DNA from: an uncultured Clostridia bacterium
Lineage (GTDB): Bacteria; Bacillota; Clostridia; Oscillospirales; Acutalibacteraceae
Length of the DNA: 52,153 bases
Reading direction: 5' to 3'
Assembly (NCBI GenBank): GCA_947631855.1
Contig: CANRMX010000009.1
Coordinates: 1-52,153 of the forward strand
Numbering within the stretch: the stretch's first letter is position 1; every line of letters begins with the position of its first letter. A program made the position numbers and the translations under genes. Below the pieces are notes generated by a model. The model was not told the DNA's origin. It saw only the letters and a list, made by a program, of their open reading frames with translations, and searched no databases. This document shows, in pieces, positions 25,876-51,393 of the stretch.

Positions 25876-25978
25876 ATTTATTTATTGGCTCCCCCGGTGG
25901 GGGGAGCCAAAAGGCCAGCGACCCCGGTTATTTATTGGCTCCCCCGATGGGGGGAGCCAAAAGGCTAGCGACCCCGGA
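25876..25978. repeat. Tandem palindromic repeat (two 51-bp units)
   Basis: Two near-identical units follow each other, each with TTATTTATTGGCTCCCCC, a 9-bp hairpin GGCTCCCCC/GGGGGAGCC, then AAAAGGC.AGCGACCCCGG. They differ at only a few bases (GGTGG versus GATGG; GGCCAG versus GGCTAG). The pair is flanked by near-identical ATTTCACCTTCGCTTTCAA (about 25859) and ATTTCACCTGCGCTTTCAA (about 25993). It is REP-like, with coding-strand translation giving LAPPxGGA repeats that are likely spurious. Confidence 0.75.
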
Positions 25979-39526: not shown

Positions 39527-39675
39527 GGCAGTGGTACTGTGGAATATGCGAGCGGGCAGGTCTGCGCGGCGGAACGCCGTGAACCATGTCAGGCGGGGAA
39601 CCGAGCAGCATTAAGCGGAGGCTTCCGGGCGATGCAGGTCGCCTGTCCGTTCACATATTCTACCGCGCTTCTGCC
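39527..39675 (+). ncRNA. ffs: Signal recognition particle RNA (4.5S/scRNA-like)
   Basis: The RNA shows the domain IV core for Ffh binding: ATGTCAGG, CGGGGAACCG with a GGAA loop, then AGCAGCATTAAG, and the matching CCGGGCGATGCAGGTCGCC strand. The ends pair: GGCAG (39527-39531) with CTGCC (39671-39675), and GGAATATG with CATATTCT further in. At about 149 nt it is longer than E. coli 4.5S but lacks room for a full Alu domain. It guides membrane protein targeting. Placement directly upstream of dnaX is classical in Firmicutes. Confidence 0.85.
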
Positions 39676-42420: not shown

Positions 42421-42894
42421 GTGGCGGGAAAAGCGAACACAAAGACCATTGCGAACAATAAAAAAGCCTACCACGACTATTTCGTGGAGGAGACCTTTGA
42501 GGCCGGCATCGAACTGGTGGGGACGGAAGTAAAATCCCTGCGGCAGGGGAGGGCAAACCTGAAAGACGCCTGGTGCTCGGTGGTCAACGGGGAGATGCTC
42601 CTCAACGGCTGCCACATCAGCCCTTACGATTTCGGCAACATCTTCAACCGCGACCCCATGCGGGTGCGCCGCCTGCTGATGCACAAGCGGGAGATTTTGC
42701 GGCTGTACGGCATCGTGAAGCAGCAGGGGTATTCGCTGATCCCCCTGTCCCTGTATTTTAAGGATTCCCGGGTGAAGGTGCAGGTGGGTCTGTGCAAGGG
42801 TAAAAAGCTCTATGACAAGCGGGCCGACATGGCCCAGCGCTCCGCCCAGCGGGAGATCGAGCGCACCATGAAGGAACGCATGCGCCAGGGGTGA
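42421..42894 (+). CDS. smpB: SsrA-binding protein SmpB
   Basis: The 157-aa protein has [47 protein letters not shown] and [32 protein letters not shown], the SmpB signature. It binds tmRNA (ssrA), whose gene lies about 1 kb downstream, and brings it to stalled ribosomes for trans-translation. GTG 42421 follows AAGGAGAAGAAGG. Linkage of smpB and ssrA is common, but here a repeat array separates them. Confidence 0.95.
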
Positions 42895-42920: not shown

Positions 42921-43007
42921 GTGTACGCCTGTGTGCTGTTTGATTTGGACAATACCCTGCTGTGCGGAGAACCCACCCTGCCGGAGCTGTGCACCCACCT
43001 GCTGTGA
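42921..43007 (+). pseudogene. Truncated HAD-family hydrolase (N-terminal remnant)
   Basis: A strong RBS (AAGGAGGAG) precedes GTG 42921, which opens VYACVLFDLDNTLLCGEPTLPELCTHLL and stops at TGA 43005-43007 after 28 codons. VLFDLDNTLL is the catalytic motif I of HAD phosphatases, which are normally over 200 aa. Only the first strand is left. The 3' part was probably lost when the repeat array or a deletion arose next to ssrA. Confidence 0.8.
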
Positions 43008-43017
43008 CATTTTTTGC

Positions 43018-43046
43018 TTGTCAAAGGCGTAAAAGGCGGCTATAAT
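43018..43046 (+). promoter_or_regulatory. Near-consensus promoter upstream of the ssrA repeat array
   Basis: TTGTCA (43018-43023) and a perfect TATAAT (43041-43046) have a 17-base spacer. It lies directly upstream of the array and points toward ssrA. It may be the ancestral ssrA promoter, now about 900 bases from the gene. Confidence 0.75.
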
Positions 43047-43087
43047 GAGGGGGCGGGGGAATGTTCGCCCGACGGATGGTATTCAAT

Positions 43088-43943
43088 AAAGATTTCGATG
43101 CACTCCATGGATGATATTCCAATATCATCAAAGAAATAGAGAAGATGAGGCTGTAAAGGTTTCAACACGCTCCATGGATGATATTTTAATATCATCAAAA
43201 AAAAGAGAAGATGCGGCTGTAAAGGTTTCGACACGCTCCATGGATGATATTTTAATATCATCAAAAAAAGAGAAGATGCGGCTGTAAAGGTTTCGACACA
43301 CTTCACGGATGATATTTCAATATCATCAAAAAATAGAGAAGATGAGGCTGTAAAGGTTTCGACGCACTTCACGGATGATATTCCAATATCATCAAAAAAA
43401 GAGAAGATGCGGCCGTAAAGGTTTCGACACGCTCCATGGATGATATTCTAATATCATCAAAAAATAGAGAAGGTGCGGCCGTAAAGGTTTCGGCACACCA
43501 ATGGATGATATTTTAATATCATCAAAAAATAAAGAAGATGGGGCCGTAAAGGTTTTGGCACGCTTCATGGATGATATTTTAATATCATCAAAAAAAGAGA
43601 AGATGCGGCTGTAAAGGTTTCGGCACGCTTCATGGATGATATTTTAATATCATCAAAAATAAAGGAGATGGGGCCGTAAAGGTTTCGACACGCTTCAATG
43701 GATGATATTTTAATATCATCTTAAGAATAATTTAGAAATGGGGATGTAAAGGTTTCGACGCGCTCCATAGATGATATTTTAATATCATCTTAAAAATAAT
43801 TTAGAAATGGGGATGTAAAGGTTTCGACACGCTCAACGGATGATATTCCAATATCATCAAAAAATAGAGAAGATGAGATCGTAAAGGTTTCGACGCGCTT
43901 CATGGATGATATTTTAATATCATCTTAAAAATAATATAGAAAT
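43088..43943 (+). repeat. Tandem array of about 13 units carrying the ssrA 5' end and a palindrome
   Basis: About thirteen units of 65-69 bases run head to tail up to ssrA. Each has (1) a copy of the ssrA 5' end, GTAAAGGTTTCGAC, plus a short extension CGCTYCATG; (2) a palindrome with arms GATGATATT and AATATCATC and a variable two-base centre (TT in most, CC in three, TC and CT once each); and (3) an A-rich spacer. Palindromes begin at 43110, 43177, 43243, 43308, 43374, 43439, 43504, 43570, 43635, 43701, 43770, 43839 and 43905. Units starting at 43740 and 43809 match the true ssrA start, GGGGATGTAAAGGTTTCGAC, exactly; those further away have drifted. Spacers are of two types (ATCAAAAAATAGAGAAGATG and ATCTTAAAAATAATTTAGAA). 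The last palindrome (43905-43924) sits at the -35 region of ssrA. Confidence 0.92.
43932..43937 (+). promoter_or_regulatory. Proximal -10 box of ssrA
   Basis: TAATAT lies at -12 to -7 from the first base of the mature tmRNA at 43944. The palindrome at 43905-43924 covers -39 to -20, where a -35 box would lie; no TTGACA-like hexamer is visible. Equivalent TAATTT boxes precede the perfect 5'-end copies at 43740 and 43809. Hence each such unit may carry a mini-promoter. Confidence 0.45.
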
Positions 43944-44291
43944 GGGGATGTAAAGGTTTCGACGGGGGCGGGGAGCCCTGGTAAGCGAGCAGCGGTGCGG
44001 AACCGCTTAAAAAGCCGCAATCAACAAATTAAACGACAACAATTCTGTTGCCCTCGCGGCCTAACTAGGCTGCCGTTTCACCCCAGAGTACCGCGGCCGG
44101 GGATGAAGCGTCGATGAGCGGTGAACGTGCGCAGAGCGACGCCCTTACCTCTGCCATGACCTAAGGGCTGCCAATGCCGGAAGTCTGCTTTTGGACGTCC
44201 GGCAGAGGGAGATTTAAATCAAAAGCTACGCTCGTAGAAAGCCCCGGCAACCTTCTTTCGGACGCGGGTTCGACTCCCGCCATCTCCACCA
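43944..44291 (+). ncRNA. ssrA: Transfer-messenger RNA (tmRNA)
   Basis: The 5' end GGGGATG pairs with the 3' CATCTCC of the acceptor stem, followed by A and an encoded CCA (44289-44291). A T-arm GCGGGTTCGACTCCCGC lies near 44263-44280. The tag reading frame ends ...NDNNSVALAA* (44031-44064), and a likely resume codon GCA at 44017 gives AINKLNDNNSVALAA. The tag rescues stalled ribosomes and marks proteins for degradation with SmpB. The 348-nt length is typical. Its 5' 20 bases are repeated in the array upstream, and a terminator follows at 44296. The exact resume codon is inferred. Confidence 0.95.
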
Positions 44292-44533: not shown

Positions 44534-44592
44534 GCGCGAAAAGAGAAAGAATTATAAGGAGTGCGCATGGGGCAAAGGAGGATACCTTCACA

Positions 44593-44671
44593 ATGTGTGA
44601 GGCGACATCCCAAACAAATACAATTGGAGAACGGCTGGCTTTGCAGAATGGAAGTCAGCCGTTTTTGTTTT
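44593..44671 (+). promoter_or_regulatory. Attenuator-like leader before the ArdA-like gene
   Basis: AAGGAGG (44575-44581) precedes ATG 44593, which opens a frame starting MCEATSQTNTIGERLALQNG. This frame runs through a strong intrinsic terminator (ACGGCTGGCTT pairs with AAGTCAGCCGT, 44631-44662, then TTTTTGTTTT) and stays open to 44877, overlapping the ArdA-like start at 44690. Ribosome movement on the leader could decide whether the hairpin forms. It is a candidate transcription attenuator controlling the antirestriction module. Confidence 0.5.
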
Positions 44672-44689
44672 CAGGAAAGGAAACTGGAT

Positions 44690-45844
44690 ATGATCAAAAT
44701 CAAAATTGGAAATGGCAGATGGGAGACGGATATCCGTTTCTCCATCAGCGAAAGCGAGCTGTGCAAAAAGTTGGAGGCAATTCACATAATGGAGGACGAG
44801 GGCAATCAGCCGTCTGTCACGGTGACAGGCATTTACTGGCCGGAGGAATTCTCCGTGCTGGAAGGGCGGCAGGTTGACTTGAACGAGATGAATTACCTCG
44901 CTAAGCGGCTGGACAGCTTCGATGACTTGGAGATGGATCAGTTCCTTATTGGGATCTCCAAACTGGACGAGCCGTCCCTCAAAAATCTCATCAACCTGAC
45001 GTTCAACTTGGATCGCTTCACGCTGGCGCAGGATGTGCGCAATTACGGAACGATCGGCAGGGCCTATGTCTTGAACACAGAGGGTGCTGTCCCGGCCAAC
45101 GACGAGGACGATCCGAAATATGCCGTCATCGGGAAGGAACTCATCGACCGCGGGCTCGGAGAGATCACCTCAAAAGGCTTGCTCATCTATGATTCTGCCT
45201 CCCCGCTGGAGGAGGTCTACGACGGCCATACCTTCCCGCCATACTATGACCGCTCTGACTTTGTGCTGTCCGTCACACTGGAATACAGCGGGCGGCAGGA
45301 ACTCCTGCTGTTCCCGGGTGAAGAGCTTGCCATCCGCAAGGCGGTCGCCCGCCTGGGTGCGCCGTCGATCCAGAATTGCAGGATGTGCATCGACGCGTCG
45401 CCCCTCTTGGCAGATGCTATGACGGAAAGAATGGAAAGCCTGCTGCGCCGCGAGAGCCTCTATGCAGTCAACGCCGCGCTGAATCAGCTGGAGCACCGGA
45501 ACGTGAATTGGGAAAAACTGGCCGCCGTCGCAGAGTTCGTGGATGTGCAGAGGTTGTCCCAGCTTACTGTCCTCGCAGAGCGTCTGGACGGTTTCGACTA
45601 CTTTCCCGCTGTCGCCGACGAGGCAGCGCTCGCCCATTATCTCGTGGACAATGTGGGAAAATACAGTCTGGATCCGGCAATGAAAGCCTATTTTGATTTC
45701 GGCGGCTTCGGAGGGCAGTTTGCCAGGGAACACGACGGGCAATTCGTAAACGGCGGATTCGTTTATTGCAACGACAGGGCGATGAGTGAATTGCTGGAGG
45801 ATACCATGTCCGAAGACGATGGTATGACGCTGGGAGGGATGTAA
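44690..45844 (+). CDS. ArdA-like antirestriction protein
   Basis: The 384-aa protein starts at ATG 44690 behind AGGAAAGG. It has the acidic ArdA-like region found in clostridial conjugative elements (LNEMNYLAKRLDSFDDLEMDQFLIGISKL, LKNLINLTFNLDRFTLAQDVRNYGTIGRAY, then EVYDGHTFPPYY). ArdA proteins mimic DNA and block type I restriction enzymes, protecting incoming DNA. The protein ends EDDGMTLGGM, a Met-rich tail shared with neighbours. It is followed by the DUF4314 fusion after one base, whose RBS lies inside the tail codons. Confidence 0.75.
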   Translation: MIKIKIGNGRWETDIRFSISESELCKKLEAIHIMEDEGNQPSVTVTGIYWPEEFSVLEGRQVDLNEMNYLAKRLDSFDDLEMDQFLIGISKLDEPSLKNLINLTFNLDRFTLAQDVRNYGTIGRAYVLNTEGAVPANDEDDPKYAVIGKELIDRGLGEITSKGLLIYDSASPLEEVYDGHTFPPYYDRSDFVLSVTLEYSGRQELLLFPGEELAIRKAVARLGAPSIQNCRMCIDASPLLADAMTERMESLLRRESLYAVNAALNQLEHRNVNWEKLAAVAEFVDVQRLSQLTVLAERLDGFDYFPAVADEAALAHYLVDNVGKYSLDPAMKAYFDFGGFGGQFAREHDGQFVNGGFVYCNDRAMSELLEDTMSEDDGMTLGGM

Positions 45845-45845
45845 A

Positions 45846-46535
45846 ATGGCACTTCTCCATGCGTCTATCACCTACAAAGGAAAAACGCTGGTTATGGAAT
45901 TGCCACAAGACTATCTCAAAATTTACGAGGAACTGAATTCCATAGGCAGCCGCAAAGCGCTGGAAAGGATCCCGCTGACCGACAACGAGGGTGACGCGAT
46001 CCGGGTCAAGCTCTATGCGGACAGCGATATCGGCAATCATCTGCTCCACCTGCTGGGCAAAAACAGTACGCTGGCAGACGCCAACACAGCGGCCTTTGCC
46101 GTGCTGAATGCGGACGAAGATATCCGGCAGGAGCTGGAACAGAATCTGCTCAACGATCAATACGCCAACACAGTGGAGATGCTGCGAGACATCATATCCG
46201 AACACGATGGCATGACGATGAAAAAGGAGGGAAACAGGATGAACGAATGGGAACGGCTGCATCGACAGGCAGAACGCTGCAAGGAAGCCTATCCGCCCGG
46301 GACGCGGGTTCTGCTTCTGCACATGGGCGAGGATCCCAGACCGGTGGAGGACCATATGCGCGGGACGGTCAGGTTTGTCGATGACATGGGCACGATGCAC
46401 TGCGCTTTCGACAACGGCAGGATCCTGGGTCTCATCCCCGGCGAGGACAGGTTCCGCAAGCTGACCGATGCGGAATTGGCGGAAGAACAGGAAAGTAAGC
46501 TAGTCGAGGATGCCGGGCCGGTCATGGGGATGTAG
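45846..46535 (+). CDS. Fusion protein: element-specific N-terminal domain plus DUF4314
   Basis: The 229-aa protein is two genes in one frame. Residues 1-121 (ITYKGKTLVMELPQDYLKIYEELNSIG ...) form an unassigned domain, ending ISEHDGMTM, which resembles a gene end. AAGGAGG and ATG 46240 follow immediately without a stop. The second part is DUF4314: YPPGTRVLLLHMGEDPRPVEDHMRGTVRFVDDMGTMHCAFDNGRILGLIPGEDRFRKLT. It ends VEDAGPVMGM. Loss of the first gene's stop apparently created the fusion; the internal start could still give a stand-alone DUF4314 protein of about 98 aa. Confidence 0.8.
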   Translation: MALLHASITYKGKTLVMELPQDYLKIYEELNSIGSRKALERIPLTDNEGDAIRVKLYADSDIGNHLLHLLGKNSTLADANTAAFAVLNADEDIRQELEQNLLNDQYANTVEMLRDIISEHDGMTMKKEGNRMNEWERLHRQAERCKEAYPPGTRVLLLHMGEDPRPVEDHMRGTVRFVDDMGTMHCAFDNGRILGLIPGEDRFRKLTDAELAEEQESKLVEDAGPVMGM

Positions 46536-46546
46536 GAGGCGAGGTC

Positions 46547-46693
46547 GTGGTCGAGATCGAAGTTGAGGTCTCCGAAGCCCTTTGGCAGCAGCTGATGCAG
46601 CTGGCCAGGATTCGAGGCGTCAGCGTGTCGGAGATCGTGGCGGGAGCCATGAGAAACTTTGTAGAAAGAGGTGAACAGGATGCCCAGCAATAA
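46547..46693 (+). CDS. Short ribbon-helix-helix-like protein (48 aa)
   Basis: GTG 46547, behind GGAGGCGAGG, opens VEIEVEVSEALWQQLMQLARIRGVSVSEIVAGAMRNFVERGEQDAQQ, ending at TAA 46691-46693. The strand-helix-helix pattern with a 'GVSVSEIVAGAM' turn is typical of ribbon-helix-helix DNA-binding or antitoxin proteins. It overlaps the next gene by 14 bases. Not previously marked by its length, it appears real because of the RBS and family pattern. Confidence 0.65.
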   Translation: MVEIEVEVSEALWQQLMQLARIRGVSVSEIVAGAMRNFVERGEQDAQQ

Positions 46694-47258
46694 GAAAGGC
46701 ATATCCGTACAGGTGGATGCGGCGATCCACGCAGAGCTGAAAGCGTACATTGAGAGCCACGGGATGACCATGGGCGAATTTGTGGCCCTGGCCTTGCAGG
46801 ATGAGCTGCATCCAAAATTCAACCAGAAGGAAGGTCAGAACATGGAAAAGATGAGAACGCTGGCATTTCAAGTGCCGGAATCGCTGTTTCAGAAGATCAA
46901 GGCATATTTGCAGCGTAACGAAATGTCGCAAAAGGAATTTGTGATCGGGCTGATCAAGGCCGAGCTGGAGCGGGAGGAACAGACGCTGGCGAACCGCATA
47001 GAAGAAGCCCTGTCCGGACCTGTGAGCGGGGTTGAGGCCGGGGCAGCAGAAACTGCCCAGGAGACTGCCGAGACCGCCGATTTGGGGCCGGTAGAGGACG
47101 CGTTCAGCGAGAACGCCGAGGATGAGGAGCTGGATGAGGAAGGAGAATCGGATTACGAGGACGAGGAAGAAACCGAGGATGAGGGGTTGGAAGAATCCGA
47201 TGGGCTTGATGAAGATCCGTCGGAATCTGAGGAGCAGTCCTTCTCCATGGGAATGTAA
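46680..47258 (+). CDS. Double ribbon-helix-helix protein with acidic tail
   Basis: The 192-aa protein starts at ATG 46680 after AGAGGTG. It carries two RHH-like motifs (about 7-45, SVQVDAAIHAELKAYIESHGMTMGEFVALAL; about 55-95, LAFQVPESLFQKIKAYLQRNEMSQKEFVIGLI). A roughly 90-residue Glu/Asp-rich tail follows, ending EQSFSMGM. Relatives without the tail are often annotated as transposon-encoded or tautomerase-like proteins. It is likely a DNA-binding regulator of the element, with the acidic tail as an added module. Confidence 0.8.
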   Translation: MPSNKKGISVQVDAAIHAELKAYIESHGMTMGEFVALALQDELHPKFNQKEGQNMEKMRTLAFQVPESLFQKIKAYLQRNEMSQKEFVIGLIKAELEREEQTLANRIEEALSGPVSGVEAGAAETAQETAETADLGPVEDAFSENAEDEELDEEGESDYEDEEETEDEGLEESDGLDEDPSESEEQSFSMGM

Positions 47259-47278
47259 GAATTTGAGGAGGAAGACCA

Positions 47279-47983
47279 TTGCCGAACTATGTGTTGAACC
47301 GATTGGAGATGAAAGGCGAACCCGCTCTGCTGCAAGCGATGCTGGAATCTATCCAGAACGACGAGCTGGGGCCGGGCTCCATCGATTTTGACAAGATCAT
47401 CCCCATGCCGTCCGCTCTCCTCATCGATGAGGGCAGCGTCACCCACGCCGGCTATGAAGCCGTTCGGGATTTCCTGAGTCGACACCCCGATATTCAAAAG
47501 GATGCGCTGCTCTCCTTGACCGTCGAGGCGGCCAGAAAGCTGGATCCCAAGGTGACCGTGCAAAGTGAGGAAACCTGGGCGGTTGGGAAAAAGGCATATT
47601 TCAATAAGCTGGAATACGGCCACACCAGCTGGTATGGCTGGCGAAACGAGCACTGGAATACCAAGTGGAACGCCTGCGACCAGACGATCCAGGAGCATAC
47701 AGACTCCTCCGTTACCCTGAATTTTCTCACCGCATGGGATGCCCCCACGCCGGTGCTGGAAAAACTGGCGGAGCAGAATCCGGGCATCGTCTTGCGGCAC
47801 CGGTGGGCGGATGAGGACATTGGGTATCATTGCGGGGAGGCCGTGTATGCCCACGGAGCGCTGGCCAGCATCTTTCTCCCCAAGCCCGGGCGGGACAGTC
47901 TGGACTTTATCTCGGACTTTGTCCCCGTGACGGAGGAAGATTACGCGCGCTTCGCCGAAGGAAGTCCCACCATGACCATGTAA
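47279..47983 (+). CDS. Api92/DUF1281-like protein
   Basis: The 234-aa protein starts at TTG 47279 behind GAGGAGG. It has the Api92-like ferredoxin-fold pattern: MPNYVLNRLEMKGEP, GSIDFDKIIPMPSAL, GWRNEHWNTKWNACDQ, LNFLTAWDAPTPVLEKLAEQ and HRWADEDIGYHCGEAVY. Such proteins are found on phages and conjugative elements; their role is unknown. It ends EGSPTMTM, another Met-x-Met tail. A terminator follows at 48005. Confidence 0.8.
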   Translation: MPNYVLNRLEMKGEPALLQAMLESIQNDELGPGSIDFDKIIPMPSALLIDEGSVTHAGYEAVRDFLSRHPDIQKDALLSLTVEAARKLDPKVTVQSEETWAVGKKAYFNKLEYGHTSWYGWRNEHWNTKWNACDQTIQEHTDSSVTLNFLTAWDAPTPVLEKLAEQNPGIVLRHRWADEDIGYHCGEAVYAHGALASIFLPKPGRDSLDFISDFVPVTEEDYARFAEGSPTMTM

Positions 47984-48004
47984 AAAAACTGATAACGACA
48001 AATC

Positions 48005-48045
48005 AAGGGCATTGATCGCTCCAACGGATCAATACCCTTTTCTTT
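48005..48045 (+). terminator. Terminator between Api92-like and Dam genes
   Basis: AAGGGCATTGATC and GATCAATACCCTT pair in a 13-bp stem with one mismatch, followed by TTCTTTTT. Confidence 0.7.
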
Positions 48046-48081
48046 TTGCGCCTTGGAGCGGTCCGCCCTTGGGAAAGGCAG

Positions 48082-49059
48082 GTGGATCGTATCAAGACGC
48101 CGGTATCGCGGGTAGGGAACAAAAGTAATCTCCTGGGGATCATATACGCCCTGTTCCCGCCCGATTACAACCGATTTGTGGATGTGTTCGGCGGGTCGGG
48201 CAGCGTGCTGTTGGGCAAGCCGAGGATCGACAGTTTTGAAGTCTACAATGACTTCGATGGGAATCTGGTGAATCTGTTCCGGGTGATGAAGTCCCGGCCC
48301 ATGGCGCTCATCCGGGAGTTGGGATTCTGCACCCTCAATGCCCGTGCAGATTTTAACGCCATCCGGGATTTCTTCAAGGGAAAGGCGCCCGAGCCTATGA
48401 GCATGATGGAAGATGAAAGAACCGTTACGAAAATCATGCTTCCGCCGCCTACAGCGCAGGAAATGATCGAGATGTTCCAGAAGCTGGCTGGAGATGTGGA
48501 TGCCCGCCGGGCGGCCATGTATTTGCGGCTGCTGCGATTCAGTTACGCCAGCGGATGCAAATCCTTTGCGGCCCAGCCCTTCGACCTGAAAAAGCTGTTC
48601 GGGCTCATCGAGCAGATGCAGGACAGGCTGCGAAACGTGGTGGTGGAGAATCAGGATTTTGAGACCCTGCTGCGCCACTTTGACCGGGAGGATGCTCTGT
48701 TTTACTGCGACCCGCCCTACTATTCCACCGAGGATATGTACGAGGGTTTCACCCGGGACGACCATGAGCGGCTTCGAGATGCGCTGGGGAATCTGCGGGG
48801 GAAATTTTTACTCTCCTACAACGACTGCCCGGAGATTCGGGAATTGTATGCGGGGTTTCCGCGCTTTGAGTTTGCCCGGCCGCACTCTATGGCTCAGCGA
48901 TACGAGGCGGGCAGGGAGTTTCGGGAACTGCTCATCGGCAATTACGACTTGCTGGCGCGGGCGCGGGATGCTCCCTGTCAGGTGACCATGGAAGAACTGT
49001 ACGATGAACATTTTGACTTTGAAAAAATGCTGAAAGAGAGTGTGTATCATGGCAAATAA
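48082..49059 (+). CDS. DNA adenine methyltransferase (Dam/D12 class)
   Basis: The 325-aa protein has the D12-class motifs: TPVSRVGNKSNL near the N-terminus, FVDVFGGSGSVLL (S-adenosylmethionine binding) and CDPPYYSTEDMYEGF (catalytic DPPY, about 210-213). It methylates adenine in DNA. In a mobile element this can protect against restriction, complementing the ArdA-like protein. GTG 48082 was chosen for the RBS-like GAAAGGCAG; an ATG at 48046 would extend it by 12 residues. No restriction endonuclease partner is visible. Confidence 0.85.
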   Translation: MDRIKTPVSRVGNKSNLLGIIYALFPPDYNRFVDVFGGSGSVLLGKPRIDSFEVYNDFDGNLVNLFRVMKSRPMALIRELGFCTLNARADFNAIRDFFKGKAPEPMSMMEDERTVTKIMLPPPTAQEMIEMFQKLAGDVDARRAAMYLRLLRFSYASGCKSFAAQPFDLKKLFGLIEQMQDRLRNVVVENQDFETLLRHFDREDALFYCDPPYYSTEDMYEGFTRDDHERLRDALGNLRGKFLLSYNDCPEIRELYAGFPRFEFARPHSMAQRYEAGREFRELLIGNYDLLARARDAPCQVTMEELYDEHFDFEKMLKESVYHGK

Positions 49060-49246
49060 AGTGACGTGGCCCTTTGTGCTGCTGACAGTGCCCATGGACG
49101 TGCTGGAGGATTCCGGCATCGACCTGGACGGGGTGCTGCAGTTTACCGCCGAGGACGGGAAGATCGTCATCGAATCGGTCAGCCCGGAGGATGTGGAGGA
49201 TTACCTGTGCGATGGGGACTGCGAAAGCTGTCCGCTGTCCGAATAA
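49049..49246 (+). CDS. Small AbrB-like/element-conserved protein (65 aa)
   Basis: ATG 49049 overlaps the Dam stop by 11 bases and is preceded by GAAAGAGAG. The product, MANKVTWPFVLLTVPMDVLEDSGID..., contains a swapped-hairpin-like short strand pattern and ends in a Cys-rich CDGDCESCPLSE. Similar small proteins accompany AbrB-like regulators on clostridial integrative elements; it may bind metal through the CxxxCxxC cluster. The function is unknown. Confidence 0.7.
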   Translation: MANKVTWPFVLLTVPMDVLEDSGIDLDGVLQFTAEDGKIVIESVSPEDVEDYLCDGDCESCPLSE

Positions 49247-49268
49247 AGCACAGAAAGGAGAATATGCA

Positions 49269-49583
49269 ATGAAACTGTACCGATTTTTGGGCAAGCGCGG
49301 CAGGATCACCCTCCCGCTCCCGCTCCGGGAACGGCTGGATCTTCGGCCAGGGAATTTGCTGTCCTTTGCAGAAACGGAGGACGGCATGGGGATCATTCTG
49401 CGGCAGGAGACCGTGTGCGACGGCTGCGGGGCGGAGGATGTGGACTTCGATTTGGACGAGAATAATCCGGAGGCCGCAGTGGAGCAGGAGGACGTAAGCC
49501 TCCAAGAGTATTTGGAGAGCCTTACGCCCCAGCAGCAGCGGGCGGCGCTGATCTACCTCAGCGTCAACATGGTAAAAGAATAG
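49269..49583 (+). CDS. AbrB/SpoVT-like DNA-binding regulator
   Basis: The 104-aa protein starts at ATG 49269 behind AAGGAG. It has the swapped-hairpin pattern RFLGKRGRITLPLPLRERLDLRPGNLLSFAETEDG of AbrB/MazE/SpoVT transcription factors, and a CDGCG metal-binding-like patch. It likely regulates element genes. It lies 22 bases after the previous small gene and 12 bases before the SpoVG-like gene. Confidence 0.8.
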   Translation: MKLYRFLGKRGRITLPLPLRERLDLRPGNLLSFAETEDGMGIILRQETVCDGCGAEDVDFDLDENNPEAAVEQEDVSLQEYLESLTPQQQRAALIYLSVNMVKE

Positions 49584-49595
49584 GGAGAAATTTCA

Positions 49596-50012
49596 ATGAC
49601 TGAGAATATTCAAGCGCAGATCGATCAAGTGGAGGAAGTCTCCGCAGTGCCGCCCTTTACTGTGCGCGTCTTCCCGGTGAATCATCCGAGTGGGAAACTG
49701 CAGGCCAATGCACAGATCACGGTGGCGGGCGCGTTCGTGGTGAGCGGATTCCGCATCTTCCAGGGCGACCGGGGCCTGTTCGTCCGGGAACCGCAGCAGG
49801 TATTTGAGAGCAACAACACCCGGCGCTATAGCTCCATCGTACAGCCCATCACCCGAGAGGCACGGGAGGCCATTTTTGGAAACATCCTCAGTGAGTACCG
49901 GGCTGTGGCCCAGCGGATGGGGCGTTCCATTCAACAGCAGCCCGAGATGGAGACGGATGTCTCGGACGATGACCTCCCTTTTGAGGAAGACGGCCCGGTG
50001 ATGGGGATGTAG
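49596..50012 (+). CDS. SpoVG-family protein with Met-x-Met tail
   Basis: The 138-aa protein has the SpoVG fold: VRVFPVNHPSGKLQANAQITVAGAFVVSGFRIFQGDRGLFVREPQQVFESNNTRRYSSIVQPITREAREAIF. SpoVG binds RNA/DNA and controls development. Mobile-element versions probably regulate the element. It ends in an acidic stretch and EEDGPVMGM. The start at ATG 49596 follows AGGGAGAAAT. Confidence 0.88.
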   Translation: MTENIQAQIDQVEEVSAVPPFTVRVFPVNHPSGKLQANAQITVAGAFVVSGFRIFQGDRGLFVREPQQVFESNNTRRYSSIVQPITREAREAIFGNILSEYRAVAQRMGRSIQQQPEMETDVSDDDLPFEEDGPVMGM

Positions 50013-50139
50013 CCGTGCGCAGAAAAAGTCTGTGTCTAAAGTGAAAACTTTTCGGGTTTGGGGTGGACATTGCCGCCGCTTGTAGAGTATGGTTGCTGGT
50101 ACCACGAAAGAGTGGAATCAATCGGAAGGAAGGATCAAT

Positions 50140-51393
50140 ATGAACAACGCCCTACGGAAAGCAATGGCAATTGGCTTCGCGGCCGTGGCGATTGCATCCA
50201 CAGCACTCTCCGCCCAGGCCGCGCAGGTTTCAGATTTCAAAGATGTGCGGCCCACTGCCTGGTATTATGACGCGGTGGACTACGCCACCCGAGCGGGCCT
50301 GTTCTCCGGCACCAGCGCCACCACGTTCTCGCCGGAACAGGGCATGACCCGTGGAATGTTCGTCAAGGTGCTGGGGAATCAGGCAGGGGTGGACAAGAGC
50401 AGATTCAACACCTCCCGCTTTACGGACGTGTCCCCCACCGCCTGGTACGGCCCGTATGTGGCATGGGCGGCGGATGCAGGGATCGTCAGCGGCGTGGGCG
50501 GCGGGCAATTTGCTCCGAATCAGCCCATCACCCGAGAACAGCTGGCCGCCATGCTCCTGCGGTATGTGCAGACCATCGGCGGAGATACGTCACTTTCCGT
50601 GTACGACCTCGACCGATTCCCGGACAGCGGGAAGCTCTCCGGCTACGCCAGGGAGGCCATGGCCTGGGCGGTGAGCCATGGGATCATCGCGGGATCGGAC
50701 GGGAAACTGCTGCCCCAGGGCACGGCCACCCGCGCACAGGCAGCGCAAATCTTCATGCGGGCGCAGGGGATTTTGGCGGGCGCGGAAGTAAGCAAAGAGC
50801 CGGGCCAGCAGCAGGAAGAAGCCAAGAACGATCTCCTCAACTTGACCCTCTATACCACTAACTGGACGGAGGATCAGAACCCCTATGAGATTGTCCGGCA
50901 GATCGTGGCCGGGACGGGCGCAAAGTGGGATGCTGCATTGGACCAAACTTCGGCTTACCGGGAAGTCCTCATCGACTTCGCCGATTGGGGCGACACCCAC
51001 TACACCGGCGATTGGGCCGTGTACAACGGTCTAGAATTGCTCAACGATTCGGGCGCGGACCACTTTTACATCTGTGAGGATACGGTGGGCGGCACGCCGC
51101 AGGAGGGCCTGACCCTGTATTTCACGGTGCCGGAGCGGGCGGACAGCCCCGTCCTGGCTAGGGCCAAGGAGATCATCCGGGCGGAGTTCCCCAACGCACG
51201 CTTTGAGATTATGGGCGGCGTCCATGGGTGGAGCGGATACACTGGATCCGCTCCCGACCTGACGACCGAGCAGAACGCCCGGCGCGTGGCAGACGCCGCC
51301 CTCCGCAATCTCGACGAGTGGCACAGAAAGGATGAAGTTTTCACCTACTGGATCAGCGAGCCGACGCCGGGGAGGTTTTACTACTACTATTGA
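50140..51393 (+). CDS. SLH-domain surface protein
   Basis: The 417-aa secreted protein has a signal peptide (MNNALRKAMAIGFAAVAIASTALSAQA) and three S-layer homology domains (about 30-205: FKDVRPTAWYYDAVDYATRAGLFSG, FTDVSPTAWYGPYVAWAADAGIVSGV, FPDSGKLSGYAREAMAWAVSHGIIAG). An uncharacterised C-terminal domain (about 225-417) follows. SLH domains bind pyruvylated secondary cell-wall polymers. RBS AAGGAGGAT precedes ATG 50140. It is adjacent to a thioester adhesin gene, so it may be surface cargo of the element. Confidence 0.9.
   Translation: MNNALRKAMAIGFAAVAIASTALSAQAAQVSDFKDVRPTAWYYDAVDYATRAGLFSGTSATTFSPEQGMTRGMFVKVLGNQAGVDKSRFNTSRFTDVSPTAWYGPYVAWAADAGIVSGVGGGQFAPNQPITREQLAAMLLRYVQTIGGDTSLSVYDLDRFPDSGKLSGYAREAMAWAVSHGIIAGSDGKLLPQGTATRAQAAQIFMRAQGILAGAEVSKEPGQQQEEAKNDLLNLTLYTTNWTEDQNPYEIVRQIVAGTGAKWDAALDQTSAYREVLIDFADWGDTHYTGDWAVYNGLELLNDSGADHFYICEDTVGGTPQEGLTLYFTVPERADSPVLARAKEIIRAEFPNARFEIMGGVHGWSGYTGSAPDLTTEQNARRVADAALRNLDEWHRKDEVFTYWISEPTPGRFYYYY

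Follow-up and report, generated by a model that had tools for sequence, protein, structure and literature searches.

The window analysed here, a stretch of DNA of 52,153 nucleotides, contains 13 head-to-tail units (43087-43943, plus strand) that reach the first base of ssrA, the gene for tmRNA, which to our knowledge is made by nearly every bacterium. The array is far beyond chance and its units share one ancestry; each of them contains the start of the tmRNA together with a palindrome that is frozen among drifting flanks. Because the array separates the gene from a promoter-like site, because such a site stands 17-51 bp from ssrA in 13 of 21 genus relatives, and because no such array was found elsewhere in the genomes searched, it is probably a minisatellite private to this lineage, situated inside the transcribed ssrA leader and grown by tandem duplication. 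With 0.86 kb of repeats between promoter and gene, the locus offers a test of hairpins driving or homogenising bacterial minisatellites against a leader repeat regulating a housekeeping RNA.

Table 1. Features at and around the ssrA-proximal array, with positions in the window
Feature	Position	Strand	Basis
SRP RNA gene	39554-39651		RNA gene annotation
smpB, upstream of the array	42421..42894	+	PF01668, E 3.7e-62
Probable native ssrA promoter, TTGTCA-17-TATAAT, 11/12 consensus bases, upstream of the array	43018..43046	+	consensus scan
Short unique leader preceding unit 1; first core-like copy begins at 43087	43047..43086	+	sequence
Tandem array, 13 units	43087..43943	+	Tandem Repeats Finder and unit alignment
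Units 1-9, spacer type A: A-rich, then approximately AGAGAAGATG, with a drifted end, e.g. CGGCTG or GGGCCG	43087..43676	+	alignment
Units 10-11, type B spacers with a terminal GGGGATG (cf. ssrA bases 1-7), then core	43677..43815	+	alignment
Unit 12, spacer type A, flanked by type B units	43816..43881	+	alignment
Unit 13, type B spacer reaching the first ssrA base	43882..43943	+	alignment
Palindrome, last unit	43905..43924	.	pattern search and alignment
ssrA, tmRNA gene, tag DNNSVALAA	43944..44291	+	ARAGORN, Rfam

Units were delimited at the core TAAAGGTTTCGAC, a 13-base sequence that is also ssrA bases 8-20; it opens each of the 13 units, and the copy belonging to ssrA closes the array. Within a unit, the core is followed by approximately RCRCTYCAYGG, by the palindrome GATGATATT-YY-AATATCATC and by a spacer, either type A or type B. 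Tandem Repeats Finder reported 43087-43963 with a period of 65, 13.2 copies, 85% matches and a score of 1096, and the core-to-core steps, from left to right, were 67, 66, 65, 66, 65, 66, 65, 65, 65, 70, 69, 66 and 69 bp, the last being the step to the core of ssrA. The palindromes start at 43110, 43177, 43243, 43308, 43374, 43439, 43504, 43570, 43635, 43701, 43770, 43839 and 43905. The sequence-only reading had put the array at about thirteen units ending exactly at ssrA, which was borne out, with 13 units spaced by 65-70 bp in one draft assembly, on which the exact figure depends. The two interleaved spacer subtypes that it described were likewise recovered, type B in units 10, 11 and 13 and type A in the remaining units, ten in all, of which unit 12 stands amid type B units. 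The three type B units, positioned near ssrA, are separated by just 3-4 differing sites, and their spacers end in GGGGATG, exactly the beginning of ssrA. Identification as a CRISPR array was rejected, as the units align throughout and carry two related spacer types, whereas CRISPR spacers are unrelated. A protein-coding repeat was also rejected, with stops in all six frames across the array; as unit lengths mix 65, 66, 67, 69 and 70, the frame shifts across units, and a mechanical 110 aa frame on the minus strand spans only 43040-43372.

Mismatches of the successive copies to the first 20 bases of ssrA numbered, from left to right, 9, 3, 2, 2, 2, 3, 4, 4, 3, 2, 0, 0 and 4, with 0 for ssrA itself. 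In the leftmost copy, 7 of the 9 mismatches (of 20 bases) fall in the 7 bases preceding the 13-base core. The 20-mers identical to ssrA, besides ssrA, are at 43740 and 43809. The earlier statement that the match to the tmRNA 5′ end is strongest nearest ssrA therefore holds only in part: neither exact copy is the one nearest to the gene (43875), which carries 4 mismatches to its first 20 bases, and given the series above the drift forms no clean gradient.

The genes upstream of the array were identified by Pfam as dnaX, a YbaB gene, recR and smpB. The promoter-like site is 897 bp from ssrA here. For comparison, 250 bases before ssrA were scored in the 21 genus relatives with a full tmRNA match, seven genus genomes without such a match being left out. 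Sites with at least 9/12 consensus bases were present in 15 of the 21, 13 of them at 17-51 bp, one at 109 bp and one at 159 bp before ssrA; the other six had no such site within the scored bases, and these six and the two more distant sites leave orthology of the promoter tentative. The suggestion that leader units had been amplified gained support from this layout, as the array stands between the promoter-like site and the mature 5′ end of the tmRNA. A promoter in every unit, the other form of that suggestion, was rejected, as plus-strand 9/12 matches, which are weak, occurred in only 3 of the 13 units (10, 11 and 13). One minus-strand 9/12 match was located at 43962-43933, and promoter-like sites totalled five, including the 11/12 one, against 2.5 expected in shuffles. 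A role of the hairpin as terminator was rejected, as no terminator was flagged on the plus or minus strand of the array. Between smpB and the array, a 28-codon frame (42921-43007) that by look is a putative HAD hydrolase start ends before the ssrA promoter, and the relatives G203 and G223 carry a longer HAD-like sequence after smpB. In the relative G209 (L096 / L110, G209:C21), a duplicate of the smpB 3′ end lies shortly after the gene, which indicates that this region suffers duplication elsewhere too. When the type B spacer was compared with the leaders of the 21 relatives, the best match, in G203, was equalled by 20 of 500 shuffles and is not convincing homology.

The array was found in its own genome only. 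Of 29 genus genomes, a single one contained two cores at unit distance, as did a single one of 398 family genomes; a looser tmRNA-start pattern likewise matched one of 398 phylum genomes. In every case this was the genome of the array itself; these overlapping samples comprise 28, 397 and 397 other genomes, and the array pattern search also covered the seven genus genomes without a full tmRNA match. As the patterns demand near-exact copies, they would miss decayed arrays. Tandem repeats within 1 kb before ssrA were detected at 7 of 34 other ssrA loci (of 37, three without a recognisable 5′ end being left out), all with a period of at most 15. Phage and plasmid records contained no match, and viral contigs no match to the unit pattern. 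At up to 2 mismatches, the palindrome has 13 sites in its own 1.84 Mb assembly, all of them inside the array, against 0 for the reversed control, and outside the array a shortened palindrome pattern matched twice at one mismatch and three times at two mismatches, 5 matches in all where the control gave 2; as this assembly is 81% complete and in 59 contigs, statements of absence for the genome are limited accordingly. At up to 1 mismatch, the palindrome was found in 6 of 200 family genomes including its own, the other five having one imperfect palindrome each. The palindrome as a widespread motif was rejected, as all 27 stretches inspected (22 from genome contigs and 5 from viral contigs) held a single palindrome; one of them alone (L051) has a core-like 13-mer (at most 1 mismatch), 1.4 kb off, and no tmRNA was found there. 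Among the matches listed from the open-access literature, no title described tandem tmRNA 5′ ends. As a separate observation, the genus genomes G201, G205, G206, G212, G213, G214 and G223, three of which are at least 90% complete, gave no tmRNA match over the cut-off; smpB was found in G205, G212, G214 and G223.

Short direct repeats flanking a hairpin are the classic substrate of slipped mispairing, and in general tmRNA maturation RNase P trims the precursor at its 5′ end. A minisatellite grown in the leader would have begun when slipped mispairing between the core direct repeats that flank the hairpin doubled a segment containing the palindrome and the first 20 bases of ssrA; further slippage or unequal exchange would then have produced the 13 units, the youngest-looking (type B) near ssrA. 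RNA polymerase would start shortly after 43046, giving a leader some 0.9 kb long that RNase P, going by general tmRNA maturation, would cut off at G1 of the tmRNA. The layout of the junctions can be obtained from a tandem duplication whose left edge is the base that follows the leftmost core and whose right edge is ssrA base 20. Similarity between units also falls off with distance along the array (Mantel r 0.41, p 0.007), the pattern expected of local duplication. The leftmost core agrees with ssrA at 11 of 13 bases, and since the chance of this in a 40-base leader is about 4e-4, this core could be a copy that has since decayed, not the partner in the first slippage; the counterpoint is that an array can be born only where a match such as the leftmost core exists. 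The B-B-A-B order of units requires exchange, simple addition at one end being insufficient. A 0.9 kb leader is odd on a housekeeping RNA and counts against the leader model.

The palindrome arms GATGATATT and AATATCATC are identical in 13 of 13 units, and their centres are TT in eight, CC in three, TC in one and CT in one, so that all four centre types named earlier are present. Departures from the consensus amounted to 0 of 234 cells in the 18 arm columns, 7 of 169 in the 13 core columns and 8 of 26 in the two centre bases. The chance that 18 given columns are all invariant, among 66 columns of which 30 vary, is 1.3e-6. On a neighbour-joining tree of the units, which for exchanging repeats is only approximate, equally for all columns, parsimony required 0 steps in the arms, 7 in the core, 3 in the centre and 36 in the 33 other columns. 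As about 20 steps were expected in the arms and 0 observed (Poisson P0 3e-9), passive drift alone is insufficient for their constancy. No symmetric double change in the arms was present among the 13 aligned units, which argues that the exact sequence, beyond its symmetry, is kept. Read on the plus strand, every centre is a pair of pyrimidines, which, with only 3 steps there, is weak evidence. The constancy of the arms points either to use of the sequence itself or to hairpin-centred repair that re-copies the palindrome, the two being left side by side here; the palindrome may act as a bound DNA site, as an RNA hairpin or in such repair.

Repair centred on the hairpin is a special case of the minisatellite explanation, in which a hairpin or cruciform is cut and mended from a sister unit, giving both expansion and alike arms without use to the cell. 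It fits the tandem growth, the local similarity and the constant arms and requires no partner site elsewhere in the genome, but the centre of the palindrome, where conversion should peak, varies (8 of 26 cells differ from TT), and template switching should have given symmetric double changes in some units, of which none was found; we consider it possible but rather doubtful.

The sequence-only reading had compared the symmetric arms and varying centre to an operator or a recombination core. The pattern itself was confirmed and is significant, but no second site turned up at up to 2 mismatches in the 81% complete assembly. An operator array, in which a dimeric protein bound to each palindrome would repress, activate or be titrated by the ssrA leader, is compatible with a minisatellite origin and could hold on top of it. 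Such binding would agree with arms that keep their exact sequence, beyond mere symmetry, next to a varying centre and varying flanks. It is nevertheless unlikely: no other site with at most 2 mismatches occurs in the 81% complete assembly, the shortened pattern had 5 outside places against 2 in the control, the sites lack helical phase, successive positions being spread around the whole helix at 10.5 bp per turn, and no partner protein is known. Less likely again is a dedicated, sequence-specific dyad system in which a protein or recombinase would read the palindrome together with the TAAAGGTTTC core and add or remove units at the ssrA edge, thereby setting leader length and tmRNA output.

Insertion scars, left by small elements added singly at the ssrA 5′ end with the core as target, are very unlikely. 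The core is present at each junction, and ssrA is often targeted by islands, though at its 3′ end in the account drawn on here (PMC3146451). The units, however, are homologous along their length, without cargo or a second genomic location, and no relative with fewer units was found among the genus genomes. A mobile element or phage origin was rejected, as phage, plasmid and viral collections gave no match. Neither the operator nor the scar reading, nor that of decoy RNAs derived from the tmRNA, has positive support.

It is highly improbable that the type B copies of ssrA bases 1-20 serve as alternative 5′ halves, pairing with the 3′ half of the tRNA-like domain to give longer or inactive tmRNA or decoys. 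In partition-function folds, which ignore pseudoknots and folding during transcription, the copy at 43740 took the acceptor 3′ strand with a probability of 0.27-0.99 in five leaders including it, and native pairing was 0.55 when both upstream exact copies were turned to type A. The native stem, however, had a probability of 0.81-0.98 with shorter leaders, leaders of up to two units keeping it, and only two upstream copies are exact. In the controls, 21 of the 30 shuffled leaders brought native pairing under 0.5, and a type A leader brought it to 0; as these leaders too lose the native stem, the folding method says little here, and decoy RNA receives no specific support, shuffled leaders disturbing the acceptor stem as well. 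The result with the type A leader led to rejection of the idea that type A drift protects tmRNA folding. In folds of the whole leader, each arm was split between its own hairpin (0.07-0.70) and the arms of other copies (0.28-0.93).

We file the array as a palindromic minisatellite containing the start of the RNA gene that it precedes, its head-to-tail units (period 65, 13.2 copies) falling within the ~10-100 bp of minisatellites. Bacterial minisatellites and VNTR or MIRU loci consist of head-to-tail intergenic units of tens of bp that drift between units. The ssrA array is likewise made of head-to-tail intergenic units of tens of bp with drift among them, but the 5′ end of a functional RNA gene is part of its unit, and its palindrome arms are strictly invariant. 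REP/BIME sequences, with their RAYT transposases, are short palindromes in arrays that are dispersed in many copies; the ssrA array shares the short palindromes in arrays, but its 13 copies occupy one locus, without dispersed palindromic units. For pneumococcal BOX elements, the description drawn on here gives variable numbers of tandem boxB modules with predicted stem-loops, some of them transcribed within leaders or operons (PMC3049150). Tandem modules with predicted stem-loops make BOX, so described, similar in make-up to the ssrA array, but BOX is interspersed genome-wide with boxA and boxC ends, whereas the ssrA array is at one locus, all 13 palindromes of the assembly lying within it, and its unit carries part of the gene it precedes. 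The ssrA-specific islands of Dehalococcoides, as described in the source, are bounded by 20 bp direct repeats of the ssrA 3′ end, downstream of the gene, and 16 of 31 islands have a syntenic integration module including a serine recombinase (PMC3146451). On that description, the islands and the array have in common that an ssrA end recurs as several direct repeats close to the gene, but here the repeated end is the 5′ end, the array is upstream, and the 52-57 bp between cores hold no genes; the 3′ end has one copy, at up to 3 mismatches, in the 81% complete assembly.

After ssrA, positions 44561-51393 carry genes like those of conjugative or integrated elements (ArdA-like, DUF4314, Api92-like, Dam-like methyltransferase below the NCBIfam cut-off, AbrB-type domain, and SpoVG-like below cut-off), followed by an S-layer homology protein. 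The region may be an element that integrated at the 3′ end of ssrA; a second copy of that end was not found in the 81% complete assembly. Elsewhere in the window, a 50 bp unit is repeated twice at 25878-25977 with 96% identity, and by eye could form a hairpin.
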